A DNA stretch of 64,000 nt from Bryopsis sp. KO-2023 (taxonomy: Eukaryota > Chlorophyta > Ulvophyceae > Bryopsidales > Bryopsidaceae): positions 7,502,001 to 7,566,000 of the forward strand of contig BSYQ01000003.1 in NCBI GenBank assembly GCA_030272585.1. Direction: 5' to 3'. The notes beneath the pieces were generated by a model that saw nothing but the letters and a program-made list of their open reading frames with translations, ran no database searches and was not told the origin of the DNA. Both the position numbers and the translations under genes were made by a program. Positions 2,016 through 27,829 of this stretch are shown here, in pieces (the stretch's first letter is position 1; every line of letters starts with the position of its first letter).

Positions 2016-3593
2016 ATGTCGGCGGAAGACTTTAACAACCTGGTGGAGTCGGTGGCGGCACTAAAGACGGGGTGCAAAGCACTGGAAGACCGAATCGGGG
2101 AACTCGAAGGGTTGGAGATAAAGACAGAAATCGCGAATATCCACAAAGCAGGACAGAACGTGGAGAAACTGGTGAATAAGCATGGCGACGAGTTCGCAAA
2201 GGTTCACAAAGCAGGCTTGGCAGTCGAAAAACTGGCGAATAAGCATGGAGAGTCCTTACAGAAACTGTCGAAAGCGGTCGGCAAGCTCGATGAAGCGGGA
2301 GCCGGGCTACAGGACAAAGTCAAAGCTGTAAAGGAGAAAGTTGCTGAGCTTGGAACCACGAGCGAAACCAGACATGTCGAGACGACTGGGAAACTGGAAC
2401 TGCTGGAGAAATCGGTGGGTGACGTCCGAGCAGACATGCTGAAAGTTCGACAGGCGGGCACGAAACTGGAACAGAAATTGTCGAAAGTGACCCTCGACGG
2501 CCAAGCGAACCACCAGAAACTAATGCAGAAGCTGGACGAACTAACGTTGAGCCAGACCCTACGGGAAACACAAGCGATGGAGTTTCGGACGGATACGGAT
2601 GCAAAGATCTCCACCATGGTGGCTACTATGACGGAATTAACCGAACAGCAGTCGACGGCGCAGTCGGCTGTGGGCATCAACTTGGAAGCCGGGTCAAGTA
2701 TGCACAAAAAGCTATTGGACCTGCAAGAACAAATGGCGAACCAAAGGAGCGACTTCCAAGCATCGTTGTTGGCAGCAAAACAAGAACTGGAGCAAAAGCT
2801 CCGTCAAGCGAGAGCGACGAGTGGTGCGACGAGTGGTGCGACGAGTGGAGGCTCTGCAGGGCCATCTATACCTGATGTGTGGAACTTTGCGCCTATCCGG
2901 CTGGGGAATCCTCCCCAGTTCTTTGGGAAAACGGGAGAAGGAGCATCCGACTGGGTGGAGAGTATGGAAACTTATTTTGTGGCGTCTGGATGTCCCCTGA
3001 ACAAGAGGGCGTTACTGGCGTCGACGGTGTTGAGAGGAGCAGCGCAGGAATGGTTTACTGTTAAGAAAGCGTCCAACCCGGACGTGTTGGCGAGCTGGGA
3101 GACTCTGGGGCAGGAGATTATCGAATATTTCGACCCCTTTGACAAAGCAGAAACAGCCAGAGACCAACTGTTCCGGTTATCACACAAGAAAGGAACGCTA
3201 AGGGAGCATATCGCTTTGTTTGCCAAACTCTTGCTGAAGACTCCCACCATGAGCACCGAAGACAAGGTGCATCTATTCACGCACTCTCTACAGGCGAAGA
3301 TAAAATCCCATGTTTTCCTAAACCGTCCCCACACATTTGATGAAGCCGTCCAGTTGGCACTGCAAGCAGATCGGGCTGCAGGCCGAGCAGGAAACGACCA
3401 GACTCCCTGGTACCCAAAGCAAAACCGACAGTATGACGATAAAATGGAGATCGGCGCAGTGTCTGGAGAAAAGTGGAACAAGTCGGCGCCCAAGAAAGGG
3501 AAATGTCATAACTGCGGAAAGTTCGGGCATTTTGCGAGAGAATGTCGATCGAAGAACAAGGGTGGCCAGAACAAGTCGTCGGGAAACGAGTAA
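2016..3593 (+). CDS. gag: Gag polyprotein of element B
   Basis: Structural protein of 525 residues that would form the retrotransposon particle and package its RNA. Residues 1 to about 270 are long alpha-helical heptad-like repeats, rich in K, E, L and A (repeated V-E-K-L-x-N-K-H-G units), a predicted coiled coil. Residues about 290-455 match the Ty3-type capsid region (retrotrans_gag: G-A-A-Q-E-W-F and the following helices). A CCHC zinc knuckle, C-H-N-C-x4-H-x4-C, lies near residues 496-509. ATG follows a 92-base leader after the LTR. It ends at TAA 3,591-3,593, six bases after the slippery site that gives access to pol. Element A carries a 521-residue homologue with a few short indels. Confidence 0.95.
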   Translation: MSAEDFNNLVESVAALKTGCKALEDRIGELEGLEIKTEIANIHKAGQNVEKLVNKHGDEFAKVHKAGLAVEKLANKHGESLQKLSKAVGKLDEAGAGLQDKVKAVKEKVAELGTTSETRHVETTGKLELLEKSVGDVRADMLKVRQAGTKLEQKLSKVTLDGQANHQKLMQKLDELTLSQTLRETQAMEFRTDTDAKISTMVATMTELTEQQSTAQSAVGINLEAGSSMHKKLLDLQEQMANQRSDFQASLLAAKQELEQKLRQARATSGATSGATSGGSAGPSIPDVWNFAPIRLGNPPQFFGKTGEGASDWVESMETYFVASGCPLNKRALLASTVLRGAAQEWFTVKKASNPDVLASWETLGQEIIEYFDPFDKAETARDQLFRLSHKKGTLREHIALFAKLLLKTPTMSTEDKVHLFTHSLQAKIKSHVFLNRPHTFDEAVQLALQADRAAGRAGNDQTPWYPKQNRQYDDKMEIGAVSGEKWNKSAPKKGKCHNCGKFGHFARECRSKNKGGQNKSSGNE

Positions 3594-6500
3594 GGCCTCC
3601 CTGGACCAGGCCAGGAGGGGCGTCAAAGAAACCTGGACATGCAAATGTGATGTCGGAAATGTCGTCGGAAAGTCGTCAGAATGGTTCTCAAGACAAGGAA
3701 GGATTACAAGGAAATCAGAGGAATGTCAGTGATGGGAAGGTGCTAGTGGTTGATAAGGTTGAAGGGGGAACATCTAAAGGATCTCCTGAGAATGGTGCTC
3801 AGGCAAAGGCAGGATCCAGATGTAAGACATCTTCATCTTATTTGGGAAGGTTTGGGGGAGGGAAGCTTGCCAGATCCAGTACCTCAGATTCGAGGGCTGG
3901 CAAAGGGGATCCGGTCAGCAACAAAGCTAAGGGATCCATCCCCACAGTGTTGGGACAATCCATACAGAAAACCCCTGAGATGGAAGGGATAACAAAGGAC
4001 AGTCTACAGTCCTCCCCTCCAAAAGGATCAGTGGTGATGCAGAAACAGCTACAGACAATCAAGGAATCCATCTCTAAGCCCAGAGAGGTTCTCACAGCCT
4101 CAGGAGTATGGAAATCCATACATGAAAAAGAGGAATCAAAAGGGAATCATGGGATTCACAAGCAAGTCAGATTCTCATCATCAACTGAGACACATTGTCC
4201 AACACCAAACCAGGATACAGAGGAGAAAATGGTGACAGGGAAATTGGGATCAGTGGGTCAAGGAGACCTGGGATCCACCCTGCTATATGTGCCTGGAAAA
4301 TTGAAAACACAGACAGTCAAATGTCTCATTGACAGTGGAGCTACTGGTGATTTTATGGATGTCATCACTGCCCAAGAGAATGCATTGAAAATCCTTAAAA
4401 ATGAACATCTATCAGTGGAGTTAGCTGATGGATCCAGAATCCTGCTCAAGGAGAAAGCATTGATCAGACTCAGATTGGGTCCATGGGTGATTAAGAGGAC
4501 CTTCTGGATGGTACCAAACTTGAAGCACAAGATCATACTGGGAAAGGCTTGGCTGGTTGACCACAACCCACACATTGACTGGAGGAGTCATGTGATCACC
4601 ATCTGCAGGCCTAATAAAGTCCCAATCAAGCTACAAGGTTTCCATCCAAAGGTGGCAGCAGTTCAGAATCCCCAAGAGATCAACCTCCTCTCAGCCAGTG
4701 AGGCTAAGAAATGTTTGAAGAACAGAGATGGAGAGGCTTACTTGGTGCTGGTCAGGAAAGTTCAGGATCCCCAGGAATCAGGGGAAATCAATGCAGCCAA
4801 GCAAATCAGGAATCCTGGTGAAGCAAAGGCAGTCAAGGGTACAGAGGATGGTACAGATGCAAATTTCAAAGGCATGGTCGATGGATTGGATGATGAACTA
4901 CATGAGCTGAAGGATGTCCTTAATGAATACAAGGATGTCTTCCCAATGGACCTACCTGATCATCTACCACCTCACAGACCATGGGACATGAAGATCCCAT
5001 TGAAAGATGATGCTAAACCAGTTTTTGGACCACTATATAAGCAGTCCCCAAAGGAATTAGATGCTCTGAAGGAGCAATTGGACTATTTGCTACAGAAAGG
5101 AATGATCAGACCCAGCCACAGCAATTTTGGAGCACCTGTACTCTTTGTCCCCAAACCTGGAGGGGCATTGAGATTTTGTGTGGACTACAGAGCTCTGAAC
5201 AGAGCCACAAAGGTCACTCAGTTTCCCATTCCTAGAATGGATGAGATGCTGGACAGGCTGAGCCATGCAAGGTACTTCAGCAAAGTGGACTTAAGGGCAG
5301 GATTTTGGCAACTGAGGATGGCACCAGGGGAGGAAGGAAAAACAGCTTTCAGGACAAAGTATGGCCAGTATGAATTTCTGGTCATGCCAATGGGACTGAG
5401 TGGATCACCTGGGCATTTCATGTCCATGATGAATGAGATCCTGGCTCCCTACATTGATAAGTTTGTTCAAGTCTTCCTGGATGACATCTTAATCTATTCA
5501 TCCACCCCTGAAGAGCATGCAAAACACATGAAGATGGTGCTGGAGGCCCTCAGGAAACATCAACTGTATGCAAAGCTGGTCAAGTCTGCAGTAGGGAAAA
5601 AGGAAGTGGACTTTCTGGGAACATGGGTCACTCACCAAGGAGTTCAGCCTATGGCTGATAAGCTGGATGCAATCAAGAAGTGGCCTACACCCTCTAATGT
5701 CCATGATGTCAGGAGCTTCCTGGGATTGTGCTGCTTCTACAGAAGATTTGTGGCCAATTTCAGTGGGAAAGCTGCAGCATTGACCAACCTGACCAAAGGG
5801 AATCAGCAGTTCATATGGGGAAAAGAAGAACAACAGGCATTTGAAGATCTCAAGGATGCATTATGCTCAGCACCTGTTTTGATACATCCCAGGGAAGATT
5901 GGCCCTGGATTGTGGCCACTGATGGCAGTCAATCAGGAGTGGGGGGAGTATTGATGCAAGAGGGGCCAGATGGCTTGCATCCAGTAGCTTTTGAATCCCA
6001 TAAGCTGACTGATGCTGAAACAAGGTACCCCATCCATGAGATTGAGCTGTTGGGGATTGTCCACTGCCTAAAGAAGTGGAGAGCATATTTGGAAGGAAGA
6101 GAGTTTGTCCTCAGAACAGACAATCAGTCATTAATTTGGCTGGATTCTCAACAACACTTGAGCAGGAGGCAAGCTCGATGGGTGGAGTTTCTAGCTCCAT
6201 TCAGGTTCCAAACTGTTCATATCCCTGGGAAAGATAATGTGGTGGCTGATGCCCTCTCCAGATGTCCACATCCAGTGGATCCAAGGGATTCTGGAAGTGG
6301 AGGGGGAGAATTGAAGGCATCTGCACCAAATGGCACAACCAACACTCTTGTGAAGCATGATGGCAAAGTTCAGAGGTACCAAGGCTTGGGGGCCTGGGGA
6401 GAGAATCATCCACAGGATCTTGTGTTTGATGAACAACCAGGAGAGCCATTGGGTTCCAGATTGGTGAAGGTTACTGGATGCCAAACTGGAAAGCTGCCTG

Positions 6501-8140
6501 AGAGACTGAAAACAGATGTGATGCCAAGTGATGCAAGAGGAGGTACCAAATGGGGTACTGTAAATGGATCGCCAAGATCTGATGAACAAATCAATGCACT
6601 GGAGAAAACATCCATGGAACCTGTGGCTCAAGGGAGCCCACAAGAGGTTGCTGATGCCCAGAAGAATGATGTACATTGCAAGGAAATCCTGAAGAGATTG
6701 GATTCTGACATCCAGAGCCAAAGGGTGTTCAAGATGTCTGCTGATGGAGTTCTACAGACTGTGGAAGGGAAGATTGTAGTGCCACAAAGTCTGAAAGCAA
6801 TGGTGATGAAGGAAGGGCATGACAGTTTGCTTGGAGGACACAAAGGGAAGGAAAGAACATTGTCTACACTACAGCAGAACTTCTGGTGGAAGAAGATGTC
6901 TCAAGAGGTGGCTCAGTATTGTAGGAGCTGTCCTGTGTGCCAGAAGACTAAATCATCTACTCAGAAGATTGCTGGAGATTTACAATCACTGCAAATCCCC
7001 ACAAGAAGATGGAGCTCTGTGAGTTTGGACCTCATCACAGGATTACCAAGGACATCAAGGGGGAAGGATGCAATAGTGGTGTTTGTGGACAGGATGTCAA
7101 AGATGTCCCATTTCTGTGCAACTGAAGGAACCATTGGAGCTGTTGGGATGGCTAGGATGCTATTTGATGAAGTCTGGAGGCATCATGGAATGCCTGAAGA
7201 CCTGGTATCTGACAGAGATGCCAGGTTTACATCTGAATTGTGGAAGGAGTTAATGAAGCTGGTGGGTACTACATTGAAGATGTCATCTGCCAGGCATCCC
7301 CAATCAGATGGCCAGACAGAGAGGCTTAACAGGATACTGGAAGAGAGCTTAAGAGCCTATGTGAGCCATTCCCAAACAGACTGGGATTTGAAGTTAAGTG
7401 CAGCTGAATTTGTGTATAATCAAGGGAAACAATCAAGTACTGGGTATAGCCCCTTTTACTTGAATTCTGGAGAAGAACCCTTGGTCCCTGCAGCCTTGAT
7501 TGGAAGGAAGAAGATTGAGACACCCATCAGAGGTGTGGATGAGATTTTGAATGACCTGAAGATGGATGTGGAGGTGGCCAAGACATGTATTGCTAGAGCT
7601 CAAAACAGACAGAAGCAGAGTGCAGACAAGCACAGGAGAGTGGATGAGTTCAGTGTGGATGACAAGGTCCTCCTCAGTACTAAAGATTTGAAGCTGGCTG
7701 GGGACAGATGCAAGAAGCTTGGGCCCAAATATGTGGGACCATTCAGAGTGAAAAAGAGAGTGGGTCAGGTGGCCTATGAACTGGAAGTCCCACAGCAGTG
7801 GAGTCTGCATCCAGTGTTCCACATTTCAAAGTTGAGGAGATTCCATCAGGATGGACAGTATGGGGAGAGGGAACCCAACCCAGTTCCACCTGAAATCATT
7901 GATGGAAACACAGAGTTCCATGTGGAAAGGATATTGGATCACAGAGAGGTCAAGAGAGGCAGAGGCAGGGGGAGGACATCAAGAGAGTTCCTCATCAGAT
8001 GGCAAGGATATGACAGAGGTCATGATAGCTGGGAGCCTATCAGAAACCTGGAGAACTGTCCAGATGTAGCAGCATCATACTTCCAGCAGAATCACTTGGA
8101 AGCAACAGAGCAGGAGAAGAAGGTTTGGAAGTGGAGATAA
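3542..8140 (+). CDS. pol: Pol polyprotein of element B (protease, RT, RNase H, integrase, chromodomain)
   Basis: The open frame is about 1,530 codons and overlaps gag by 52 bases in the -1 frame. The ATG at 3,542 opens it, but the real protein is probably Gag-Pol made by frameshifting at 3,581-3,587. Domains, numbered from that ATG: a 260-residue linker; protease with D-S-G-A-T near 264; reverse transcriptase with F-L-D-D near 646-649; RNase H with T-D-G-S near 791 and T-D-N-Q-S near 860; integrase zinc-binding H-x-H/C-x2-C about 1,094-1,132, then the DDE core including S-D-R-D-A-R-F and H-P-Q-S-D-G-Q-T-E; a GPY/F-like region; and a C-terminal chromodomain, residues about 1,460-1,518, with the aromatic residues of H3K9-methyl readers (W-Q-G-Y, D-S-W-E-P). 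The chromodomain would steer integration to heterochromatin. Confidence 0.95.
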   Translation: MSIEEQGWPEQVVGKRVRPPWTRPGGASKKPGHANVMSEMSSESRQNGSQDKEGLQGNQRNVSDGKVLVVDKVEGGTSKGSPENGAQAKAGSRCKTSSSYLGRFGGGKLARSSTSDSRAGKGDPVSNKAKGSIPTVLGQSIQKTPEMEGITKDSLQSSPPKGSVVMQKQLQTIKESISKPREVLTASGVWKSIHEKEESKGNHGIHKQVRFSSSTETHCPTPNQDTEEKMVTGKLGSVGQGDLGSTLLYVPGKLKTQTVKCLIDSGATGDFMDVITAQENALKILKNEHLSVELADGSRILLKEKALIRLRLGPWVIKRTFWMVPNLKHKIILGKAWLVDHNPHIDWRSHVITICRPNKVPIKLQGFHPKVAAVQNPQEINLLSASEAKKCLKNRDGEAYLVLVRKVQDPQESGEINAAKQIRNPGEAKAVKGTEDGTDANFKGMVDGLDDELHELKDVLNEYKDVFPMDLPDHLPPHRPWDMKIPLKDDAKPVFGPLYKQSPKELDALKEQLDYLLQKGMIRPSHSNFGAPVLFVPKPGGALRFCVDYRALNRATKVTQFPIPRMDEMLDRLSHARYFSKVDLRAGFWQLRMAPGEEGKTAFRTKYGQYEFLVMPMGLSGSPGHFMSMMNEILAPYIDKFVQVFLDDILIYSSTPEEHAKHMKMVLEALRKHQLYAKLVKSAVGKKEVDFLGTWVTHQGVQPMADKLDAIKKWPTPSNVHDVRSFLGLCCFYRRFVANFSGKAAALTNLTKGNQQFIWGKEEQQAFEDLKDALCSAPVLIHPREDWPWIVATDGSQSGVGGVLMQEGPDGLHPVAFESHKLTDAETRYPIHEIELLGIVHCLKKWRAYLEGREFVLRTDNQSLIWLDSQQHLSRRQARWVEFLAPFRFQTVHIPGKDNVVADALSRCPHPVDPRDSGSGGGELKASAPNGTTNTLVKHDGKVQRYQGLGAWGENHPQDLVFDEQPGEPLGSRLVKVTGCQTGKLPERLKTDVMPSDARGGTKWGTVNGSPRSDEQINALEKTSMEPVAQGSPQEVADAQKNDVHCKEILKRLDSDIQSQRVFKMSADGVLQTVEGKIVVPQSLKAMVMKEGHDSLLGGHKGKERTLSTLQQNFWWKKMSQEVAQYCRSCPVCQKTKSSTQKIAGDLQSLQIPTRRWSSVSLDLITGLPRTSRGKDAIVVFVDRMSKMSHFCATEGTIGAVGMARMLFDEVWRHHGMPEDLVSDRDARFTSELWKELMKLVGTTLKMSSARHPQSDGQTERLNRILEESLRAYVSHSQTDWDLKLSAAEFVYNQGKQSSTGYSPFYLNSGEEPLVPAALIGRKKIETPIRGVDEILNDLKMDVEVAKTCIARAQNRQKQSADKHRRVDEFSVDDKVLLSTKDLKLAGDRCKKLGPKYVGPFRVKKRVGQVAYELEVPQQWSLHPVFHISKLRRFHQDGQYGEREPNPVPPEIIDGNTEFHVERILDHREVKRGRGRGRTSREFLIRWQGYDRGHDSWEPIRNLENCPDVAASYFQQNHLEATEQEKKVWKWR
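3581..3621 (+). promoter_or_regulatory. Programmed -1 ribosomal frameshift signal between gag and pol
   Basis: The heptamer GGGAAAC at 3,581-3,587 is read in the gag frame as G GGA AAC, the X-XXY-YYZ form of a -1 slippery site. The gag stop follows after GAG. After a six- to eight-base spacer, CCTCCCTGG (3,596-3,604) can pair with CCAGGAGG (3,611-3,618) around a six-base loop, a stem placed where frameshift stimulators occur. Pol is exactly in the -1 frame and open through the slip. Element A keeps the same heptamer and stem. Confidence 0.8.
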
Positions 8141-8826: not shown

Positions 8827-9226
8827 GGATGGATCCCTGAGCATTGATGCTGTCCGGATCCCCTTTGCCAGCCCTCGAATCTGAGGTACTGGATCTGGCA
8901 AGCTTCCCTCCCCCAAACCTTCTCCCATAAGATGAAGAAGTATTACATCTGGATCCTGCATTTGCATGGGCACCATTCCCAGGAGATCCTTTAGATGTCT
9001 CCACTCCAACCTTATCGACCACTAACACCTTCCCATCACTGACAATCCTCTGATTTTCATTCATTCCATCCTTGTCTTGAGAACCATTCTGACGACTTCC
9101 TGACGACATTTCCGACATCACATTTGCATGTCCAGGTTTCTTTGACGCCCCTCCTGGCCTGGTCCAGGGAGGCCCTACTCGTTTCCCGATGACTTGTTCT
9201 GGCCACCCTTGTTCTTCGATCGACAT
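8827..9226 (-). pseudogene. pol: Start of pol of element A, interrupted by element B
   Basis: Minus-strand frame overlapping the end of A gag. It begins in the -1 frame through the conserved slippery GGGAAAC (about 9,181-9,187) and encodes the same linker as B pol (G-K-R-V-x-P-P-W-T). It ends at codon G-S-I exactly where the target duplication GGATG marks the insertion of B; the frame would continue without a break at 1,554. No independent stop before the junction is visible. Confidence 0.85.
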
Positions 9227-10740
9227 TCTCTCGCAAAATGCCCGAACTTTCCGCAGTTATGACATTTCCCTTTCTTGGGCGCCGACTTGTTCCACTTTTC
9301 TCCAGACACTGCGCCTATTTCCATTTTGTCATCATACTGGCGGTTCTGCTTTTGGTACCAGGGTGTCTGTTCGTTTCCTGCTCGGCCTGCAGCCCGATCT
9401 GCTTGCAGTGCCAGCTGAACAGCTTCATCAAATGTGTGGGGACGGTTTAGGAAAACATGGGATTTTATCTTCGCCTGCAGAGAGTGCGTAAATAGATGCA
9501 CCTTGTCTTCGGTGCTCATGGTGGGAGTCTTCAGCAGGAGTTTGGCAAACAAAGCGATATGCTCCCTTAGCGTTCCTTTCTTGTGTGATAGCCGGAACAG
9601 TTGGTCTCTGGCTGTTTCTGCTTTGTCAAAGGGGTCGAAGTATTCGATAATCTCCTGCCCCAGAGTCTCCCAGCTCGCCAACACGTCCGGGTTGGACGCT
9701 TTCTTTACTGTAAACCATTCCTGCGCCGCTCCTCTCAACACCGTCGACGCCAGTAACGCCCTCTTATTCACTGGACATCCAGACGCCACAAAATACGTCT
9801 CCATACTCTCCACCCAGTCGGATGCTCCCTCTCCTGTTTTCCCAAAGAACTGAGGAGGATTCCCCAGCCGGATAGGCGCGAAGTTCCACACCTCTGGTAT
9901 AGACGGTCCTGCATAGCCTCCACTCGTCACTCCACTCGTTCCTCTCGTTTGTCGGAACTTTTCCTCCAGTTCGTATTTCGCTGCCAGTAACGATGCGTGG
10001 AGGTCGCTCTTCTGGGTTGCCATCTGCTCTTGCAGTTCCAGTAGTTTTTTGTGCATGCTTGACCCAGCCTCCAAGTTAATGCCCACAGCCGACTGCGCCG
10101 TCGACTGCTGCTCAGTTAGTTCCGTCATAGTAGCCACCAGAGTAGAGATCTTTGCGTCCGTATCCGTCCGAAACTCCATCGCCTGAGTTTCTCGTAGGGT
10201 TTGGCTCAACGTTAGTTCGTCCAGCTTCTGCATTAGCTTTTGGTGGTTTGCTTGGCTGTCGAGGTTCACTTTCGACAGTTTCTGTTCTAGTTTCGTGCCC
10301 GCTTGTCGAACTTTCAGCATGTCGGCTCGGACGTCACCCGCCGATTTTTCCAGCAGTTCCAGTTTCCCGGTCGTCTCGACATGTCTGGTTTCGTTCGTAG
10401 TTCTAAGCTCGGCGACTTTCTCCTTTACAGTTTTGACTTTATCCTGTAGCCCGGCTCCCGCTTCATCAAGCTTGCCGACTGCCGTCGACAGTTTCTGTAA
10501 GGACTCTCCATGTTTATTCGCCAGCTTTTCGACTGCCAAGCCTGCCTTGTGAACCTTTGCGAACTCGTCGCCATGCTTATTCACCAGCTTCTCCACGTTC
10601 TGTCCTGCTTTGTGGATGTTTGCAATTTCTGTCTTTATCTCCAACCCTTCGAGTTCCCCTAGTCGGTCTTCCAGTGCTTTGCAACCGGCTTTCAGTGCCG
10701 CCACCGACTCCAACACGTTGTTCATGTCCTCCGCCGACAT
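9175..10740 (-). CDS. gag: Gag polyprotein of element A
   Basis: An intact 521-residue gag frame, start ATG at 10,740. It has the same order as B gag: N-terminal coiled coil with V-E-K-L-x-N-K-H-G units, capsid-like region, CCHC knuckle near the C terminus. It is shorter by a few residues in the spacer before the capsid region, where B has extra T-S-G-A repeats. No stop or frameshift is visible, so A was probably competent until it was interrupted. It lies just downstream of its own LTR and PBS. Confidence 0.93.
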   Translation of the reverse strand: MSAEDMNNVLESVAALKAGCKALEDRLGELEGLEIKTEIANIHKAGQNVEKLVNKHGDEFAKVHKAGLAVEKLANKHGESLQKLSTAVGKLDEAGAGLQDKVKTVKEKVAELRTTNETRHVETTGKLELLEKSAGDVRADMLKVRQAGTKLEQKLSKVNLDSQANHQKLMQKLDELTLSQTLRETQAMEFRTDTDAKISTLVATMTELTEQQSTAQSAVGINLEAGSSMHKKLLELQEQMATQKSDLHASLLAAKYELEEKFRQTRGTSGVTSGGYAGPSIPEVWNFAPIRLGNPPQFFGKTGEGASDWVESMETYFVASGCPVNKRALLASTVLRGAAQEWFTVKKASNPDVLASWETLGQEIIEYFDPFDKAETARDQLFRLSHKKGTLREHIALFAKLLLKTPTMSTEDKVHLFTHSLQAKIKSHVFLNRPHTFDEAVQLALQADRAAGRAGNEQTPWYQKQNRQYDDKMEIGAVSGEKWNKSAPKKGKCHNCGKFGHFARECRSKNKGGQNKSSGNE

Positions 10741-11475: not shown

Positions 11476-11483
11476 GTGAGCCG
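11476..11483. repeat. 8-bp target duplication of the composite unit, left copy
   Basis: GTGAGCCG precedes MITE L and recurs immediately after MITE R at 21,106-21,113. Eight bases is the hAT target length. It does not match the sequence after L (GTGTGCAC), so it belongs to the outer ends of L and R together. Confidence 0.8.
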
Positions 11484-11808
11484 CAGTGTATTTTTGTGGC
11501 CCATTGTGGCCCTTTTGGCCCATTTTGGCCCCCCGAAAATTCAGAATGGCAAATTTTGGGGCCACAAAAGGGCCACATTCACCCGAAGTTTGTAAGGCCC
11601 GGGCCACATCCAAGAAATCAATCGAGTTTCCACAAAAATCAAAACCAACAACATTATATAAACACCCAGCCTTGTAATTTCTGTTTTTGAAGTTGGGGCC
11701 ACATTCTATTTTTTTCGGACAAATTGGGGCCACGAAGGGCCATAACTGGATGAAACGGCCAAATTTAGGGCCACTTTGGGGCCAGTGAAATTGAAAAAAA
11801 ATACACTG
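11484..11808 (+). mobile_element. MITE L, non-autonomous hAT derivative
   Basis: 325 bp with terminal inverted repeats CAGTGTATTTTT and AAAAATACACTG. Subterminal regions are packed with GGCC-centred repeats (TGTGGCCCATT, GGGGCCACAAAAGGGCCAC). No coding capacity. Nearly identical to MITE R except for about a dozen extra bases in R and scattered changes. Ends and subterminal repeats match those of the autonomous element at 12,276-15,970, which could supply transposase. Confidence 0.88.
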
Positions 11809-12267
11809 GTGTGCACATTAGCTCTGTTTCGGTTTTCGAGAAAATTCTTTCTTTGGCAAGTGAACTGTGAGAAGGCCTCTATCGTGTGTTGCAGACCTTG
11901 GAGAGACAAAGGCCCCTGGTCTTCGAGGTGGCGGCCGAAATAAGAGACCGCAACGAATGGGTGATTCATAATGTGAAGGTGTCGGTCGACAACCTCCTGC
12001 GAGGTCTGGACACCGAAGTCGAGGTAACGCTGCAGAGAACAACTCCATTCCTCGTTCGATCTCAGTAACAAAGAAGAATTATTCACCTGGTGGCTCCCTC
12101 GAAACACCCTCCAAAGCGAGAAAGCCCCCCGCTGCGCCAGCTCTTCCAGAGAGCACACAGGTCAAGGGAATCCTAAAGTCACCATTGTCTTTGGCAGAAG
12201 GCCAGTACATGGACGAAAAAACAATGACCACTGCGACATTGTTGTTGGCGTCCAAAATGTCCACGGC

Positions 12268-12275
12268 GTTGGGAC
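12268..12275. repeat. 8-bp target duplication of the autonomous hAT element, left copy
   Basis: GTTGGGAC at 12,268-12,275 is repeated at 15,971-15,978, directly outside CAGTG and CACTG. A perfect 8-bp duplication is characteristic of hAT transposition and fixes the element ends. Confidence 0.95.
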
Positions 12276-12894
12276 CAGTGTATATTTTTGTGGCCCATTG
12301 TGGCCCATTTGGCCCATTGTGGCCCCCCAAAAAAATTCTTGAGCACATTTTCGGGCCACAAAAGGGCCAAAACGTTTTTTTCTCAGACAATTTTTGGGCC
12401 ACAAAAGGGCCACATCCACCCGATCTTTGAAAATATTGGGCCACATCCAACAAAATAATCAACGATTCTACCAAACCAAAATCAACACTGAAATTGATTG
12501 TACAGCGAAAAATGTGCCAGTCCACGCCCTGTGTCAATCAATCGATCAATTATTACATGTTGCGTGAGTGCTCCTCAGTGAGGAGTCCTCACGCCCTGGT
12601 TCATGAACCCTGCCACGCCAGCCCGTGATAAATGTTGGGGTGATGCGACCCCAGTATTCTGGGGGCTGATTCCACGTCACGTTTTTTCCGTTCCTGCCAA
12701 GTTTACAGTGCCAACCACACCCCTTGGTGCTGGCGGATATCAAGCGCAACATCGCAACCATCGCAGTCAGGAACGTGTGGGAGGGCATCGAAGAGCGACA
12801 CTTATCAAGGTGCTGAGTTAATTTCACTCGGCGCTCGGTGTCAAACAGGGTGTTGTTTCGTTTCTTGTGCGTTTGGGTGTAGAAGCTTTCCAGG

Positions 12895-15171
12895 ATGGAT
12901 AAGTTTCTAAAAAAACGAAAAAAGGATGGGGGTGTGGAAGGCACATCAAAGCAATTTGAACGTGAAAGAGAAGCAAAAGAAGCAGGTAAGGGGAAAAAAA
13001 AGGTGGGGGGGGGAGAAGCTGATTATGAGGAACAGGCTGAAAATAAAATAAAAAAGAAAGAAAACAAACGATCCTGGAAAGAAATAGATCAAAGAAGGAG
13101 AGCAGGTCCATGGCAAAAGCAGTTTGCATGGATTGTAGAAGGGAAATGCGTGTTTTGTGAGTATGCGGGACATATCAGTCCTGTATTTACAAAAATTTAC
13201 AATTGCACCCGACACGAAATCTCTACGAAACACGTGCAATCCAAAAAGATTTATGAGCAAAAATATGGTGCTCTTGTTGCTCCAAAAAAAAAAGAGGAGA
13301 TTGTGCGAACGATACGCACCGCATTCAGGGCACCCACACGATTACGTGATGGCGTTATACAACAGTTGAAGATCATATTCAACATTCTTCGAAAAGAAGC
13401 TTCCGTGTCCAGTATGGAGGCAGACTATGAGTTAATGTTTGAGCTCGGAGTTGGGCTGCCAACCACCCATAGTTCAATTAGCTCTGGGTGGGAAATGGTG
13501 GAAGCGATAGGGCACGTGATGGAGGAAAATCTTAAGTGTCGATTAAAAAAAGCGAAGTTTGTGGGGATCGCAATCGATGACTCGACCCTTATCGACTCCA
13601 CAGAATGCACAACTCTTGTGGTAAAGTATCTAAGTGTTGGGAATCAGTTGGTCACAGAATTCTTAGCTCTTGAGAGGCTTGTGGGAGGATCTGATAGTGA
13701 AAAAATTTTTTCAACCGTTGAAAAAATTCTGAAAGACTATTCAGTCGAGTGGTCGAAGGTTGTTAGCCTGGGGACGGATGGCGCGAGTGTGATGACTGGA
13801 AAAAAAAGGGGGGTGGCTACTATGATGAAGCGTCGATCACCTTACCTTGTCGCAACACACTGCCTCGCCCACAGGAATATGTTGGTGTGTCGTGATATCC
13901 TGAAAATCGAGGAGATTCAAAGCATCTCGGCATTTTTATCGAGGCTCTACGGTCACTTCGCTAGAAGTCCAAAGCGTCAAGACTTATTCGAGCTCTGCCA
14001 AGTCGGGGAACAAACGTACAAACTGGTGCAGTATATTGAGGTCAGGTGGTTGTCAATACGAAACAGTATTCAGAGAGTATTAGACCTTCTTGACCCTCTG
14101 AGGCGTTATTTTGCTGAGAATCGTGAAGGGTCTTTCGAAATTAAGGAGCTGGAAAAGATGTTACAGAAACCTTCATTTGTACTCCTCCTGTGCGGGGTCT
14201 CGGACCTGTTGGGTCACCTCCAAACCTTGTCCTTGACATTTCAAAAGAAAAATCTCTGTTATGGTGAGGTTATGGAGGTGGTCCAAGTGGTCAAAGAAAT
14301 TGTACAGAATGATATCCTGATCCACGGGAGCATAGGAAAGAATTTTCAGAAAGAAGCGGAGAACGTTGATGAAGAAGAAAAAAAACAGGTCATCAAAGTG
14401 TTGAAAGATGCGGCCAAGCTGACATTACATGAGCTTGAGGAGCGCCTTCCTGATTCAGGCATGGTCAATGCCTTTGCTGTCTTACAACCCCATTTTTGGA
14501 GACAACGAGAGGTTAGAGTAAAGACAAGAGATGGTCTGGAACATTTCAAGGAGTTGGGTCGTTACTATGGGACCTCATTTGCTGGAGAAAGTGGACTTAT
14601 AGACCCCACTGAGCTCTTGAATGAAAGGGCCTTTCTTGCTGCCAAAATGTGTACCTTCGTGCGTGCATATGACAAGGCCGTTGGGGATGCAAGTGATGCG
14701 TCTGATCGAGCAAAACTGCTGAGTGTAAATATTACCGTGGAGGTATGGGAAGAAATTCTAAGAAGTGAAGTAATGAGGGAGAGCATGCCTCAGACTTGCT
14801 TGTTGGGGGAAATTATGTTGGTGATGTTTATCACAACAGCAGATTGTGAACGTTCTTTCAGCACAATCAAGAGGGTTAAAAGTACGTTGCGGAACCGGCT
14901 AAAAGGGGACCATCTGAGGACGTGTGTTCGAGTTGCGAGTGCAAAACCTTCTTTCGATTCCTTTGATTTTCATCATGCATTTGACACATGGTACAACAAA
15001 AAAACTAGGTATACGGGTGGAAGAACTGCTAGGAATGATCCAGAAGTGGAAGAAGATGAGGGAGGTAAGAAAAGGTCACCTGATGGAGGAGGCAATCATG
15101 ATCTAGGGAATGAGCGCACAGGGGTGGCTGATTGGGACGAGCTTAATGATGAAATATCAGATTTTTGTTGA
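12895..15171 (+). CDS. hAT-family transposase
   Basis: 758 residues, one exon. A basic Lys-rich N terminus (1-80) is followed by a zinc-finger-like motif, C85-x2-C88 ... H107-x5-H113, as in BED/TTF-type DNA-binding domains of hAT proteins. The RNase H-like catalytic core carries candidate acidic residues in A-I-D-D-S-T (about 224-229) and L-G-T-D-G-A-S (about 296-302), then the conserved T-H-C-L-A-H-R helix (about 322-328). The C terminus has the hAT dimerisation motif (F-I-T-T-A-D-C-E-R-S-F-S, about 644-655). The last 60 residues are acidic and Gly-rich. ATG at 12,895 is the first in frame, about 620 bases from the left end. No stop or frameshift is present. Closest in style to ZNF862/ZBED-like hAT transposases, judged from memory. 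Confidence 0.93.
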   Translation: MDKFLKKRKKDGGVEGTSKQFEREREAKEAGKGKKKVGGGEADYEEQAENKIKKKENKRSWKEIDQRRRAGPWQKQFAWIVEGKCVFCEYAGHISPVFTKIYNCTRHEISTKHVQSKKIYEQKYGALVAPKKKEEIVRTIRTAFRAPTRLRDGVIQQLKIIFNILRKEASVSSMEADYELMFELGVGLPTTHSSISSGWEMVEAIGHVMEENLKCRLKKAKFVGIAIDDSTLIDSTECTTLVVKYLSVGNQLVTEFLALERLVGGSDSEKIFSTVEKILKDYSVEWSKVVSLGTDGASVMTGKKRGVATMMKRRSPYLVATHCLAHRNMLVCRDILKIEEIQSISAFLSRLYGHFARSPKRQDLFELCQVGEQTYKLVQYIEVRWLSIRNSIQRVLDLLDPLRRYFAENREGSFEIKELEKMLQKPSFVLLLCGVSDLLGHLQTLSLTFQKKNLCYGEVMEVVQVVKEIVQNDILIHGSIGKNFQKEAENVDEEEKKQVIKVLKDAAKLTLHELEERLPDSGMVNAFAVLQPHFWRQREVRVKTRDGLEHFKELGRYYGTSFAGESGLIDPTELLNERAFLAAKMCTFVRAYDKAVGDASDASDRAKLLSVNITVEVWEEILRSEVMRESMPQTCLLGEIMLVMFITTADCERSFSTIKRVKSTLRNRLKGDHLRTCVRVASAKPSFDSFDFHHAFDTWYNKKTRYTGGRTARNDPEVEEDEGGKKRSPDGGGNHDLGNERTGVADWDELNDEISDFC

Positions 15172-15970
15172 GGTACAGAAGTAGATACTTTGGAAAATTC
15201 TGAAGAGAAGCTAGAAATCAACAGGGGCATCATTTAGAAGGGGACACTTTGAAAAGTGAGGGGCTGGAATGGAAATCTCAAGGAGAGGTGCTGGGCTGGG
15301 GAATTTACTAAGGGAAATGGGGGAACATTCAGGGTGTCGGTATTGCAGGGTGGAACTTTTTTCCGCTCTTGTTGGCTGTTTCCAGACTTTTGGCCGGCTG
15401 GCTCTGTGAACAGAAGGGACTGTACATGGAGATGTCATTATTGGAATGATGTTTGACAGGATGGGAGGGGTCAGGGGGTTTTGCACTGTGTGACATTAGC
15501 TCTGGTTTGGGGGAAAAAGGGAGGGGACGAGAAAATATTTCACTGGGGAAAGAAAAAAGAAACCAAATCTGAACCAAATCTGGTGGTTACAACATAGATG
15601 GCACAACAGTTCAACAGAGAGAGGGATATTGATTTGGATGCCACATTGACAATGGACTGTTTTTTATATGTTTTTCATAGGGAAGGGCTTTTTTTGTTTG
15701 TTTGCTTTAATGGACACTGGATGGATTGCTTGTGTGGGGCTAGAGTATGGGGAAAGGAAAATGCCCAGAAAGTGAAAGTGGGTGAGTTGTTCAACAAGAA
15801 GTGGAAGGAGTGTGATAGGGACCTTTCGAACCTTGTAACTTGACAATTCGAATTTGGGGCCACATTCTTATTTTTGCATGAAAATTGGGGCCACAAAAGG
15901 GCCACAACGATTTGAAATGTCTAAATTTGGGGCCACTTTGGGGCCAGTAAAATTGAAAAAAAATACACTG
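15172..15970 (+). other. 3' non-coding region of the hAT element
   Basis: About 800 bases between transposase and right inverted repeat. An 81-codon frame (15,598-15,843) shows no recognisable domain and is probably fortuitous. The last 120 bases hold the subterminal GGGGCCAC repeats shared with the MITEs. Confidence 0.7.
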
Positions 15971-16182
15971 GTTGGGACAAGCAATTTCTAACATTCCGCC
16001 TTAAGAAGATTCTTGACTTAAGATAATTGTTCCTTTTATGCTCGTGTTTATTTCGAATCGTGTGAGCAACCATTTCTAGAAAACAACGTCCAAGCTGCGC
16101 TTCTGGACTTTTTTCGGAGTTGACAATATCATTGTAAAGTTATTTCGCTGGTGGATTCTCAGCAGAAGAACTGCTGAGGAAA

Positions 16183-16613
16183 TACACTTTTTTTAATTTC
16201 GCTAGACCAAAAGTGGCCATAAATTTATAAGAAAAAGAATGAGAACGTGGCCCCAACCCTGATGATACAAATAATAAGGTTTGGATCCCAACATTGATTC
16301 ATAAATAGTGTGGAAAGGACTAATTTAGTTTGGGCAGTTGCTGTGCAATTGGTACAGTTAGGACTCTGGCTTGTGGTATTCGAAGGGACTTTGGTTGAAA
16401 CAAGGGTCATACTTTCTACTGTAAAAATGTGAATTCAACAACAGTTAATCTTTATTAATAGTATTATAATTGCAAATATCTTTCTTGGGGGTTGTGGAAT
16501 CATCGATTGGTTTCTTGAATGTAACCAGACATCGGGTGGATATGGCCCTTTTGCGTCCCAAATATTACCAGGCAAAAGGGCCACAATAGGCTATAAAAAA
16601 ACACATTGGTTCT
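16183..16613 (-). mobile_element. Degenerate MITE of the same hAT family, inverted
   Basis: The left edge (ACACTTTTTTTAATTTCGCT, then AAAAGTGGCC) matches the right end of the MITEs in reverse complement, and the right edge (AAAAGGGCCACAATAGGC ... AAACACATTGG) matches their left end. The interior is much diverged and the ends have lost the CAGTG consensus. It is an old copy in opposite orientation to L and R. No target duplication recognised. Confidence 0.65.
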
Positions 16614-17436
16614 GAGCGCTCGTCTGGGTGGATGAATGAGTGAATGAAAGAAACCAGCAAGAATCAATCACAAATAACACTGGCAAAGTTTTGTCCACAA
16701 AAAATGGAGCACATGATTCAGCAAAACCAACTTACATAGCCTTGCATATGACCAAGATTTCTTCTACTATTTTTTTTTGTTTCCCTCGACCCATCTTTCT
16801 ATACAACACCCCTCCCCTCCTTTTGTTTTTTGTTGGCAAATTTCCACATCCAGAGATTGTGGTAAAAAAACACCAAAACTTCAAAAAAAAATATACTGCA
16901 AAAACTTCAGAAATGAAAATCAATTCTTCCCCCCTCTTTTCACCATCCCCCTGTGCCTGCCTATTTTTTTTTTTTTTTGAACCCAAACACGTTCTATGTA
17001 CATACAATTATACGCAACATCGATGGTGTAAATACATCGACAGCATTTGGAGTTCCAGGCAAATTGCTCCAGGCAGATTTTTCAAAATTTCATTGATTGA
17101 TTTTTGGTTTTTCGGTTTTTTGGTTTGGTTTTGCGTTAGTAGTGTTACTACTTTCGATTTTTTTCTTTTCCTTTTGATAGCAAAACCAACTCGCTTGGGG
17201 GAAAAAAATGACGAAGCACATCCTATCAGCCTCCCAACTTCTTAATATCATGAACTGTTCCAGTTTCATAGGAAAGAAAGCAATTTGATTCTTTCTTTCG
17301 AAGTGTTGAAAAAAAAAAACTACCTATTTTTTCATTTTCCAGCCATCGCCCGTCGATCTCCAAGAAATAATACCCCACCGCCATCCTGTTGAGTTTCTTC
17401 TATTTTATAATATTCAGCCTCGAGATTGGCTGGTTT
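16614..17436. other. Intergenic AT-rich stretch
   Basis: A 201-codon plus-strand frame (16,640-17,245) is made of Phe/Pro/Lys runs over T and A tracts and looks fortuitous. This is presumably the 3' untranslated region of the CDK gene plus spacer. Nothing else seen. Confidence 0.5.
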
Positions 17437-20242
<2,806 letters not shown>

Positions 20243-20490
20243 TTCTCCAGAGGGCGCACCAAACTAACACGGACCTTCAGGGTTTTCGCAAGGACACTCG
20301 CCAACTACACCCGAGAGGCCGTATATATCTCGCACGCACCCCACCCCCTTGCGAAGGGTAACATCGCCGCCAAGAACGCGACGTTGTCTTCGGCGTGCCG
20401 TCGCATCATGAGTTGCAGCCTTCCTACAAGAATCGAGGGATTGCTGCACTGGTCGTGTGCTGTTCTGCGTTCGATCCAAAGTGAAGAAAG
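20243..20490. promoter_or_regulatory. Shared upstream region of the CDK gene and a divergent gene
   Basis: 248 bases separate two start codons on opposite strands. It includes a TATATAT stretch at about 20,322. It probably holds promoters for both. No transcription-factor site is called. Confidence 0.4.
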
Positions 20491-20746
20491 ATGTTGCGGG
20501 GAATCCTGTTGCTGTTGAATGGTAAGATGGAGAACATGACGGTTTTCATGGCTGAGTCTGCGCTGTTGATTAGCATGGAGTTTGTTCGAGGTTTCGATTT
20601 GCGGACGTCGTCTGCTGCAATGCGAACAGACCTCAACGAAGGCAGAATCGCGGGTAGAGGACGCGATTTCCCAAGCCCTCGGGGATATATTTTCCCTGGC
20701 CCTGTCCTCGATTCAGAAATGCGAGAACGAGGATCTCTTTGGACCG
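20491..20746 (+). CDS. First two exons of an unidentified gene, cut by MITE R in intron 2
   Basis: Exon 1 20,491-20,521 gives a short hydrophobic N terminus (M-L-R-G-I-L-L-L-L-N); exon 2 20,574-20,746 follows a TTAG acceptor in matching phase and encodes about 57 residues, helical and Cys-containing, ending before a GTGAGC donor. MITE R starts 20 bases after that donor. To the right of R I find no convincing exon 3. The exons at 11,895 onward, on the same strand, start in the matching phase 0 and read smoothly on, so the two halves may be one gene in permuted order. Function unknown. Confidence 0.45.
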
Positions 20747-20766
20747 GTGAGCGCCTGGGAGCTGTC

Positions 20767-21105
20767 CAGTGTATATTTTTGTGGCCCATTGTGGCCCTTT
20801 TGGCCCATTTTGGCCCCCAAACAAATCAGAATGGCAAATTCTGGGGCCACAAAAGGGCCACATTCACCCAAACTTTGTAAGGCCAGGGCCACATCCAAGA
20901 AATCAATCGAGTTTCCACAAAAATCAAAACCAACAACATTAAGTAAATGCTATATAAACACCAAGCCTTGTAATTTCTGTTTTTTAAGTTGGGGCCACAT
21001 TCTATTTTTTTCGGACAAATTGGGCCACAAAAGGGCCACAACTAGATGAAATGGCCAAATTCAGGGCCACTTTGGGGCCAGTGAAATCGAAAAAAAAATA
21101 CACTG
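20767..21105 (+). mobile_element. MITE R, non-autonomous hAT derivative
   Basis: 339 bp, direct orientation relative to MITE L, ends CAGTGTATATTTTT and AAAAATACACTG, same subterminal GGCC repeats. Left flank GAGCTGTC, right flank GTGAGCCG. The right flank equals the left flank of MITE L, 9.3 kb away. Confidence 0.88.
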
Positions 21106-21113
21106 GTGAGCCG
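21106..21113. repeat. 8-bp target duplication of the composite unit, right copy
   Basis: GTGAGCCG follows the right end of MITE R and continues as ATTCTGATCATTTCTTGCCG, which matches the right half of the empty-site-like sequence at 27,056-27,089. Confidence 0.8.
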
Positions 21114-24100
21114 ATTCTGATCATTTCTTGCCGAATTTTGAAGGTGGGAGATGGTCCAGCTCGACATCGAGGTGCAGAGGAAGGTTTTCTGCCATCTGCT
21201 GGTGGGTTGGGACCAGGCGTTCGGCATAGAGCGTTTCTCTGCAATTCGACTCGCCGACCAAGGGATGGATATAAAAAATTTCCTCTCTGCACTTTTATTA
21301 GCAGGGGGGGGGGGCAGTCTGAGAAGGATTTAAAACACAGCAGCATTTCATTGCAACAAGAGCATTTAAAGGAAGATACGTTAATGTATCTTCCCTTAAA
21401 TGCACAATTTCCACTTCTCCTTGTCACACTGACATTAACCCAGATCTATTGAACGACAAGAGAAGATTTTCGAAAGAATTTAGTTCGCTGTTTTTAAAGA
21501 AGTCGGTATTGACTCTTTTTTTTTTCTATCAGTCTGAGAGGCGCATCTTGTAGTCTTCAAGTAAGGAGAAGTTGTGGATCAGATCCATCAAGAAAAAAAA
21601 TCCCCCAAAAATAATTAATTGCCAGCTATGCATTAAAGCAACTATGACAGTTTGCATTTGATTTTGAAAACGATGACTTTCGAGTCATCGAGTATTCCTC
21701 AAAAAAACACTTAGAAACAGGAAAAAAAACCAAACTTGCAAAACTTACAGACAGAAATGCGCTCTGCATATTGCAAGAAGCCTAATGGAAAGCCAACCAG
21801 CAACAACACTGAACAAAATTCTGGAAGAAGCCGGAGAATTGTTCTCTTGATTTTATTTCTAGATTGCATTTTTATTTTTTCAAAAATATGCTACGAAATG
21901 TTATTGGATCCGTTCAATTTCTGCGCCCCTCCTGTCTGTAAAAACCTGTCTGTGGGGTGGGGAATCATATCTGAGTTTGGGAGTTTACCTAGCGTTTTCG
22001 TGTTTTTGCTGTGATTGTAATTGCGTTTTCGTGTTGGAGGATCCAGGGGGCTGTTGGAGTTTTGGTGTCGTTGAGTATATGATAAGACTCAATCAAAATC
22101 TTACAAACACCTTCACGTTTCACCACAATTAATAGTTCCAAATCCAGTGGGACAGTAACTAACATCAAACTGTCAGTCCTCCAGTCAATCCATTAGCCTA
22201 ACCCTTGCAACTAGATCATTGGTTAGAGCATCTGGGACATTGAGATCCCAAATGGGCGTTTCGTGACATTACGAACTGTGTATGGAAAATCCGATACAGT
22301 AGATAAGTAGAGAGCGGGAGTTAGCGCTGCCAACGCAGCACGACGGCCAAATGTCGCAGCGAAAACATTCTTTTCGTGGCTGCGATTGGCTGGTGCTGCT
22401 TTCTTGAGGCCGCAGCGCTCGAAAAAAAAAAAAATCCAGTTCACAAATGATATTAGGCACAGGCTGCTTTGTGGAGCGTTTGTGTGGGGTTTGTGATGAA
22501 ACAAAAATAATCTTGGTTTTTTCCATGGTTCTGTCCATATGGGTTTTTTTTCAGACCTTAAGGTAAGGTCAAACAGCTGACTGCTGGATAGAAAATGATG
22601 ATGAACTCATCTCCAAAGCAATTGTTTCGAGGACCCTGCTTTCACAATTGATTGCAATGAAAGATCTTATTTGCAATCCAATCAACATCCTCTAGCCCAG
22701 AATAGATGGATGGTGTGTTTGAAACAACAGTCCTCATGTTTGTCCTGATGTTCTCTGAAAAACAAGAATTCAGGGAAATATGGGCATGAGAATGGGCCAA
22801 AATTGAAACCACAAAACTTTCGAGTTTTGAAAAGGCCATCACAGTTCCAACACTTTTCAGAGCAGCAAACAATCATCTATTAAAAAATCTCCAAGTCCAG
22901 TTTACATGAAATACTTCCTCCCCTCACAACTCACAGCCCTGGTGAATCCACATGAACCCCCCACCCCCAGCGATTCTCAAGACAACACCACTCATCCAAT
23001 CAATGCTCCCATTTTTGTCATTTTTGTCTCCAGTTCACCACAGATTTTTAAGGATGCGGCCCTCCAGATTCTTACAATCCACATGTCTATTTCTTCCTCA
23101 TGGTTTCTTTTCTTGGCTCTTTTTTTACATATTTTTTTATCATAAATCAAAAGATCAACACCAGAAAAGCAAACTCAATCATTCTTTTGTTTCTTTTGCT
23201 CCTTTTTTTTCTCTTCGCACTTTTAGTCTTTTTATAACACAATTGTTTTCCCCCAACTCCTTTTTTGTAAAAGTTAATTTCACTACTCTTCTTTTTATTT
23301 AAACAGCTTTTTCTCGACGTCAAAAAGCTGAAAAGACCTGATTTTGACCAGCAAAAAAATTTCAAGCAGAACAGATCGCTGTAGACACCCACCAATCTGG
23401 CATACAATACACTAACCCATTCAGCCTCCTCCACGACTGCCCACTCTATCTAACCATCAGATCCACAAAGATACATAAAATAAATCTCATCTGAATCCCA
23501 ATCCGTCTTCATGTCAGTCTACCTCTCATTCAAGCCATAAAGCCTCACCGCACCATCCATACTGATTCCCATTATGTATTTTTCGCTGATGGCGTCACAT
23601 CGCTGGGCAATCCACACTCTCCACAAAATCATTCTCCATCTCTTGCTTCCGAGGAGTTGAATTTCTAGCTTCTCTTCAATATGGAGTGTTCTGTCCAATT
23701 TGTGATTGGTGTGCAGCAACTAGCTGTCTGACATGGTGCCCAAATCTCGCATCGGTACCTTCATGCACACTCCAGCACACGTGTCGATTCTTTTGCTTGG
23801 TAAAAACGCTGTTGCTTTATTGCTTTACTTTATGAGGTACTCTAGAGTTCCAGATCTGGTGCTCACCTTCTTGGAATGTTTTTCTAGGGTGCCTGGACAG
23901 GGATCAAGAAGGACACTTTGCACAACAAAGCAGTTTCTGGGAGTGCTGGCTCAGAACAGAAGCTTTGTCCCGGACATAAAACATTGTGCGGAGTGCGACA
24001 GTGAATTCAAAGAGTTCTTTTCTGGAAGAGGGTTTTTTGTTTATTTTATGCCGATGTGTATCTTGCTGGTCAATGCATATTGTATTGCATGTATTACAAG

Positions 24101-26574: not shown

Positions 26575-27829
26575 TTCGTCTCCGTTTCAGGCCGATGGAC
26601 TTCAAAGTGCTCCACAGGTCAAAACAAAAGGCGCGCAGGTGAACGGCGTCAAAGACGACTTCGCCTAAGTGCGGTCGCCTCGGCTGGACGGTTGGAGCAG
26701 TTGGCGTCCGTCTTTCCATGCGTTTCTGTCATGAACAGCAAGGGGCGTGCAGGAGTCGAACCCGAAGCAAGCAGCCGCGCCACCCCACCTTTGCCAGTCT
26801 GAGTCCAAACTCAAAAACCGAATGAGGCGAGAGAGCGACGGCGGACACAAACATACAGCGACGACCAGGGACGTCGCCGCCACCAAGAAACAGCCCTGTG
26901 CTTCTCTTGAAAACGAATTCGTTTCGAAGTGGAGCATGGATAGATAGCAGACAGGGCCACCAGAAAAATCAAGAAGGAGAGTCCAAGAGGGCGTTCGTGC
27001 TCGTAGCAGAGCTGGTGGCGGCGCCAAGCACTTGAGGAAAAACGTAATTCCCCTCGTGAGCCGATTCTGATCATTTCTTGCCGAATTTTCAAAGGGGGAT
27101 ATGTGGGATACTCCTTCGGTTTGCTTGATGTTTGTTTGTTTGTTCGGTTTGCTTAATCTATTGTGATCTTTCAGGGCATTCCAAAATTGAGATCCAGATC
27201 TGGATGAAAAGAATTGACCAGAGGTGAGGCCAGGTGATTGGCTTCTTGTGGCAAGATCACTTTATAATATTACACTTCCCGAGTCACTCCATCCAAGCTA
27301 TCTTCAGGAGCACCCACCAAATGGAGGGTCGCTGTCGAGTTGAAAGGGATGTGTGTATTAGCTGACACAATCCATAATTATTACTGCAACATTTATAGAG
27401 AGGGAATGGCTGATGATTCATCATAAGCTTGCACAGCAAAAATTTCCCCACCCAGTTAAGCGAGTGAAATTTTCCAAAATTCATTAAAAAGAACACCCCA
27501 TGCGATGGTACAAAACCCACACAGCAAAACTCCACAGGCGGAAAGAAAGCGAAAAAAAAAAAAGAAAAAAAAAAGAAAAAACGATGGATTTGGAAAAAAA
27601 AAACGAGATGCAATCAAAAATTGGTCCCCAAAACTCCATCGTTAGATTAATTGCACGGAAAATAAAAGAAAGAAGAGAAGCAAAACACGCAAGATTCCCT
27701 GGAGAAGAAAAAAGGAAAAAAAAAACCAAGCAAGCTCCAGGTACACACACTTGCGAAATGAGAAGAAAAAAAAACGATGGCACAGGTGCCTTTCTCTCCT
27801 CTTCTTTTTTTTGAATGAAAATTGATCGT
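26575..27829. other. Spacer with the empty-site-like repeat; no gene called
   Basis: 26,575-27,030 is GC-richer than its surroundings and has frames on both strands (plus 26,747-26,947; minus 26,665-27,092) without recognisable domains; it may contain 5' exons or untranslated sequence. 27,100-27,829 is AT-rich with A tracts and frames of low complexity. Confidence 0.4.
27036..27089. repeat. Paralogous empty target site of the composite hAT unit
   Basis: The first 28 bases match the 29 bases left of MITE L and the remainder, from GTGAGCCG (27,056-27,063), matches the sequence right of MITE R, with a handful of mismatches. Here the two halves are contiguous and GTGAGCCG is present once. It therefore looks like a second copy of the target without the insertion. 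Confidence 0.75.

Follow-up and report, generated by a model that had tools for sequence, protein, structure and literature searches.

How can two separate transposable elements come to share a single target duplication? The question is raised by a locus on contig C3 of the siphonous green alga Bryopsis sp. KO-2023 (91-Mb genome in 28 contigs), where two MITEs, here called L and R, form the ends of a gene-bearing segment. According to the original prediction, two MITEs had landed separately and had then been mobilised together with the cargo between them, in one event and possibly driven by a transposase gene that the cargo itself brings along. We analysed the locus within its window (C3:7502001-7566000, the whole stretch of 64,000 nucleotides, to which all positions given without a contig name refer) and searched the genome assembly for relatives of its parts. 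The copy of the composite in the window is designated W, and the other two copies, which like W lie on C3, are designated B and C.

Structure of the composite

The following features of the block and its surroundings are relevant here (strand in brackets):

11476..11483 (+), outer 8-bp target duplication GTGAGCCG, copy to the left of L; the empty paralog contains it only once
11484..11808 (+), MITE L, a complete hAT-type miniature element of 325 bp, left end of the composite
11809..11816 (+), GTGTGCAC, remaining half of the older target duplication of L, where homology to the MITE-less loci starts
11809..12275 (+), left part of the cargo, shared with B and C; three MITE-less loci contain it in interrupted blocks
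12268..12275 and 15971-15978 (+), the two copies, left and right, of the 8-bp duplication GTTGGGAC that flank the nested element
12276..15970 (+), hAT-like element of 3,695 bp with a transposase gene, nested in the cargo of W only
12895..15171 (+), transposase ORF, 758 aa
17437..20242 (-), CDK-like protein kinase gene with nine exons and GT-AG introns, 311 aa in W
20759..20766 (+), GAGCTGTC, remaining half of the older target duplication of R, where homology to the MITE-less loci ends
20767..21105 (+), MITE R, complete, 339 bp, forming the right-hand end of the block
21106..21113 (+), outer 8-bp target duplication GTGAGCCG, copy to the right of R
27025..27103 (+), shorter and more diverged relative of the insertion site (90% over 79 bp), unfilled, with a single GTGAGCCG

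L and R both have the form CAGTGTAT...ATACACTG and the same orientation, and their outward-facing ends are thus complementary. The predicted pattern of flanks is exact at the nucleotide level, with L and R being complete direct MITEs: the outer flanks are both GTGAGCCG, whereas the inner flanks, GTGTGCAC and GAGCTGTC, are unlike. Given the base composition of the window, an 8-mer would be shared by chance with a probability of ~1.7e-5. The predicted content of the cargo could be confirmed as well, i.e. a CDK gene (20242-17437 on the minus strand) and a transposase gene with an open frame of 758 codons (12895-15171). To the left of the composite we observed the frames of a Ty3-type LTR retrotransposon (gag, and pol with a chromodomain), together with another gag frame on the opposite strand (2016-8140 and 9175-10740). 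Searching the window against Rfam at gathering thresholds returned no match.

Copies on contig C3 and their target duplications

The composite is present three times on C3 within ~340 kb. Besides W, these are:

C3:7639511-7645445 (-), copy B, with ATCACAGG on both outer sides
C3:7305055-7337239 (+), copy C, with GCCTCAAC on both outer sides and a split L

All three copies, including W with GTGAGCCG, thus carry an 8-bp duplication of their own on both outer sides; the probability that three copies would each share an 8-mer by chance is ~5e-15 (base composition of the window). On the inner sides, GTGTGCAC inside L and GAGCTGTC inside R have been retained in 3/3 copies. The single mobilisation event of the original prediction consequently has to be replaced, as we find three copies with three distinct outer duplications instead.

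Homology among the copies ends at the outer MITE tips. When the 4-kb flanks on each side of B and C were compared with the sequence at hand, the one match between loci was an 84% repeat over 1.3 kb, which relates the left flank of C to window positions 22468-23776, away from the tips; the right flank of C contains a self-repeat. With the cargo end beside R as query we obtained 7 matches, 3 of which adjoin an R MITE, and with the cargo end beside L 12 matches spread over 6 loci (three adjoining L). In copy C, L is interrupted by a 26,175-bp insertion (C3:7305375-7331549), which is flanked by a TTT repeat and is read as a CACTA element by its tips alone (CACTATGGG/CCCATAGTG). Insertions with CACTA-type tips in L are confined to copy C.

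Unfilled sites of the composite and of its MITEs

The flanks of W adjoin each other, with one GTGAGCCG and nothing inserted, at a paralogous position on the opposite strand (C3:7444371-7445088), 57 kb left of the window edge and 68 kb from the W insertion. Identity to this paralog is 96.4% over 336 bp for the left flank (to 11483) and 93.9% over 429 bp for the right flank (from 21103). Neither this site nor the shorter relative at 27025..27103 contains a MITE. The original prediction had envisaged alleles lacking the block; the target of W is indeed found empty, twice and each time with a single GTGAGCCG, but in paralogs and not in alleles. W and the flanks of the empty paralog differ by ~4-6%, compared to ~1% substitutions among the three composite copies, which fits an insertion of W later than the duplication of the paralog. 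An empty relative was found neither for B (searched with the left flank only) nor for C (searched with the joined flanks).

Paralogs of the cargo without MITEs at both sites are located on two other contigs, C1 and C5. At C1:9729844-9736439 the cargo is collinear across both MITE sites, without MITEs and with indels, the left site reading GTGTGCAC and the right site GAGCTGTT. The left site has no MITE in 3/3 loci, all of which contain GTGTGCAC and sequence that runs on past the site; the right site has no R in 4/4 loci, with GAGCTGTC in two of them, GAGCTGTT in one and a gap in one. The inner flanks of the composite therefore match unfilled ancestral sites in three of three cases on the left and exactly in two of four on the right. 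L probably landed in a neighbouring gene, because in one of the left loci (L047) an open stretch of 80 codons, for which there is no Pfam match, spans its insertion site. The parent segment of the cargo forms a small dispersed family on C1 and C5 that is devoid of the L and R MITEs.

The empty paralog, the two further copies with duplications of their own and the unfilled ancestral sites together bear out the central claim that two MITEs landed separately and then moved jointly. The proposed donor locus, in which both L and R would still lie between the two copies of their respective duplications, was not among the ancestral-flank matches of this one assembly, and neither was an excision scar. 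The ancestral left flank gave 3 matches and the right flank 6 matches in 5 places, with no adjoining left/right pair among all but the faintest right-flank match (48 bp at C5:760061).

Transposase sources and relatives of the MITEs

The MITEs and the nested element have 8-bp target duplications, which is a trait of the hAT superfamily, and the termini of the nested element share 78-86% identity with the MITEs. Its transposase reaches 21.1 bits against Dimer_Tnp_hAT (PF05699), just under the cut-off of 21.4, and 2 of the 6 homologs found carry PF05699. Among 29 protein matches to this transposase in the genome two are full length (in W and on C8) and 99% identical; a third place on C1 consists of two pieces (99 and 92%), and the remaining matches are 21-65% identical. 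The three places with a match of at least 92% have the same left terminus, and the element on C8 has its own duplication, CCCACGAC.

That the block brings along its own transposase source to drive its move could not be upheld: the element is a later, nested insertion present in W only, its site being unfilled in B and C. As a driver of the moves of B and C the nested transposase was rejected, since both copies are without it. The nested element may nevertheless belong to the driving family, as its ends resemble those of the MITEs, and W itself may have moved after gaining it.

Scanning seven loci for relatives of the MITEs, we found six distinct ones, and a perfect 8-bp duplication in four distinct solo copies. 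The two scanned loci without a duplication are L007, the left end of which is unlike L, and L005, which is R of copy C and for which unequal sides are expected. Patterns of the MITE ends retrieved 66 exact matches to the left end in the genome and, with up to one mismatch allowed, 87 matches to the right end; these lists are incomplete, the left pattern missing L of W and L of C and the right pattern R of W. According to them, four places have neighbours on the same strand no more than 20 kb apart, namely W, B, C and one on C1. The outermost flanks of the pair on C1 are different (GGCCTGGG / GTCGCAAA). Six units larger than 1 kb have both ends listed: the nested element, its C8 and C1 relatives, C1:9315848, C8:1160466 and C10:3356449, the last with unlike flanks. 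The 8.8-kb unit at C1:9315848-9324671 is bounded on both sides by an end of the MITE family and has a perfect duplication, GGCCTGGG; no MITE match was obtained for short pieces located a few hundred bp inward of either end. It could be a MITE that received a large insertion, or else a long element with cargo.

The kinase gene in the three copies

The predicted gene product contains a kinase domain (PF00069, 1.5e-55, residues 7-307). Its top matches in the PDB are CDKs (best 60 of 2556), and plant CDKB-type proteins are ~44-48% identical (best 120 of 7886 matches). Judged by these similarities, the gene is a CDK-like kinase gene with a full kinase domain. The exon model of W is open in all three copies, with B and C reading 8 residues further at the C-terminus; in copy C, exon 1 is three residues shorter at its end, where the splice donor is kept. 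Applied to B, the model agrees with the deposited 319-aa protein BSKO_04364 (Bryopsis sp. KO-2023) over the 312 residues compared. Identities of the exons versus the remaining sequence are 98.9 versus 99.1% for W-B, 98.3 versus 99.3% for W-C and 98.5 versus 99.0% for B-C. Exons are no more alike than the remaining sequence, so that the comparison between copies gives no sign of selection on the kinase and the open frames are no proof of it. They may only reflect the youth of the copies.

Origin of the composite

Very probably, 11484-21105 is a macrotransposon with MITE ends, i.e. a composite DNA transposon, which arose by separate landings followed by at least three jumps of the whole block. 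Two hAT-type MITEs of the same family inserted separately at GTGTGCAC and GAGCTGTC, as shown by the unfilled paralogous sites, in the same orientation and some kilobases apart, flanking the CDK-like kinase gene. The outer ends of both, left in L and right in R, were then used jointly, as shown by the three distinct shared outer duplications, and all DNA between these ends jumped as a single element on at least three occasions, from which W, B and C arose. A hAT transposase was presumably provided in trans by autonomous elements with the same ends, and the copy number might have gone up via jumps from replicated to unreplicated DNA, a behaviour by which hAT elements can raise their number. Local jumping is known for hAT elements, and the proximity of the three copies fits this. 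Later changes are the autonomous element, now found in the cargo of W only, and the 26-kb CACTA-tipped insert, found in L of C only.

The same outer and inner flanks are also predicted by homologous recombination into resident MITEs, if each of the three sites already contained a lone MITE and was entered by a circle or repair template that carried cargo plus MITE. An alignment of the six MITEs speaks to this: 30 columns, 11 of which are one indel, tell the three Ls from the three Rs, and across these columns (53 to 365 of 382) L- and R-type states are kept in 3/3 copies, whereas resident MITEs should bring variants of their own in the outer halves. The first 52 columns are non-diagnostic, so that L may have a different origin in its outermost part, which is a point in favour of recombination. 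Further points in its favour are that L of W is without 43 bp found in the Ls of B and C, as R likewise is, and that it matches R at one base in the first T run; these features could be due to a deletion and a change in run length, or to a small conversion. Moreover, parsimony sites among the copies conflict (WB 9, BC 6, WC 1; private to W 10, to B 16 and to C 16), which hints at exchange between copies. However, recombination requires three resident MITEs at three sites, and the absence of a MITE from both unfilled relatives of the W site argues against it. We regard this alternative as very improbable.

Reversed-ends transposition with re-replication, as in Composite Insertions of the maize type, might have made the first copy, followed by macrotransposon moves. 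Such events are known for Ac/fAc and, in the portion of the source available, yield blocks of flanking DNA between transposon termini (PMC4270019). Composite Insertions, however, join two re-replicated flanks, whereas the cargo here is one collinear stretch between both sites in the ancestral locus; plain macrotransposition thus suffices, and we consider a reversed-ends origin highly improbable. The location of the three copies within 340 kb of one contig would also suit a segmental duplication of a locus already holding the composite, without further transposition. This was rejected and deserves next to no credence, because homology does not continue past the outer MITE ends and the 8-bp duplication differs from copy to copy. 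Just as negligible is the chance of a Pack-type capture, in which a single long hAT element would have taken up gene sequence between its ends: it would yield a gene-bearing unit with one outer duplication, but both ends of the block are complete MITEs with both termini, and the inner half-duplications match unfilled ancestral sites. Assignment to the Pack-TIR class was rejected accordingly, the cargo being bounded by two complete MITEs and not by one pair of ends.

Comparison with known systems

The macrotransposon reading of the block can be taken further, tentatively and with considerable doubt: MITE pairs would make ordinary gene-bearing DNA a self-standing, amplifying composite in eukaryotes, and in Bryopsis would have spread open kinase copies with their own upstream region, possibly altering kinase dosage. 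If true, this dosage could change in a coenocyte with very many nuclei. The block itself shows that non-coding elements can, merely through their position, mobilise and multiply a whole intron-bearing gene, as a eukaryotic counterpart of bacterial composite transposons. The proposed order of events, from unfilled sites via MITE landings and three block jumps to nested insertions, can be read from one genome, and further cases could be searched for as direct MITE pairs with matching outer and unlike inner flanks.

Insertion sequences commonly code for transposase, unlike the Bryopsis MITEs, which have no transposase gene and rely on that of an element elsewhere. As in bacterial composite transposons, to judge from the excerpt of PMC6431247, two small elements mobilise the DNA between them. 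A hAT transposon multiplies a host gene also in Pseudocercospora, where, in the available part of the report, an intron-less histone H3 is captured inside a hAT element and the copies are inactivated (PMC6710886); the Bryopsis gene, in contrast to what this part describes, is intron-bearing, lies between two MITEs and stays open. Moves of DNA between neighbouring elements have been proposed, in the sections available, for P elements as a source of MITEs in Anopheles (PMC1562414) and for genes trapped between inverted repeats in Fusarium (PMC3599309). In those sections they are hypotheses, whereas Bryopsis offers an empty paralogous site and three target duplications. A multi-copy MITE-ended composite of eukaryotes was not found among the matches listed (titles and abstract openings, mostly outside the subscription literature), and the 'macrotransposon' literature, as far as represented by such excerpts, concerns maize or cites maize work.

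Macrotransposons of the Ac/Ds type in maize were reportedly treated by Huang and Dooner in 2008 and by Wang et al. in 2022. In the parts of the maize studies available, two linked hAT elements use their outer ends jointly and leave 8-bp end duplications, cargo reaches up to ~100 kb, and the macrotransposons, found in several maize lines, can gain copies (PMC9910405, PMC4270019, PMC3260210). The Bryopsis block resembles them in its linked hAT pair, the joint use of the outer ends and the 8-bp duplications. It differs in that both ends are MITEs of ~320-370 bp, in contrast to Ac, fAc or Ds in maize, and in that one unit with a complete multi-exon gene is present three times in the same algal genome. 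Taken together, the mechanism would be macrotransposition of the Ac/Ds type, and what appears to be new are the MITE ends and the presence of an intact gene in three copies.
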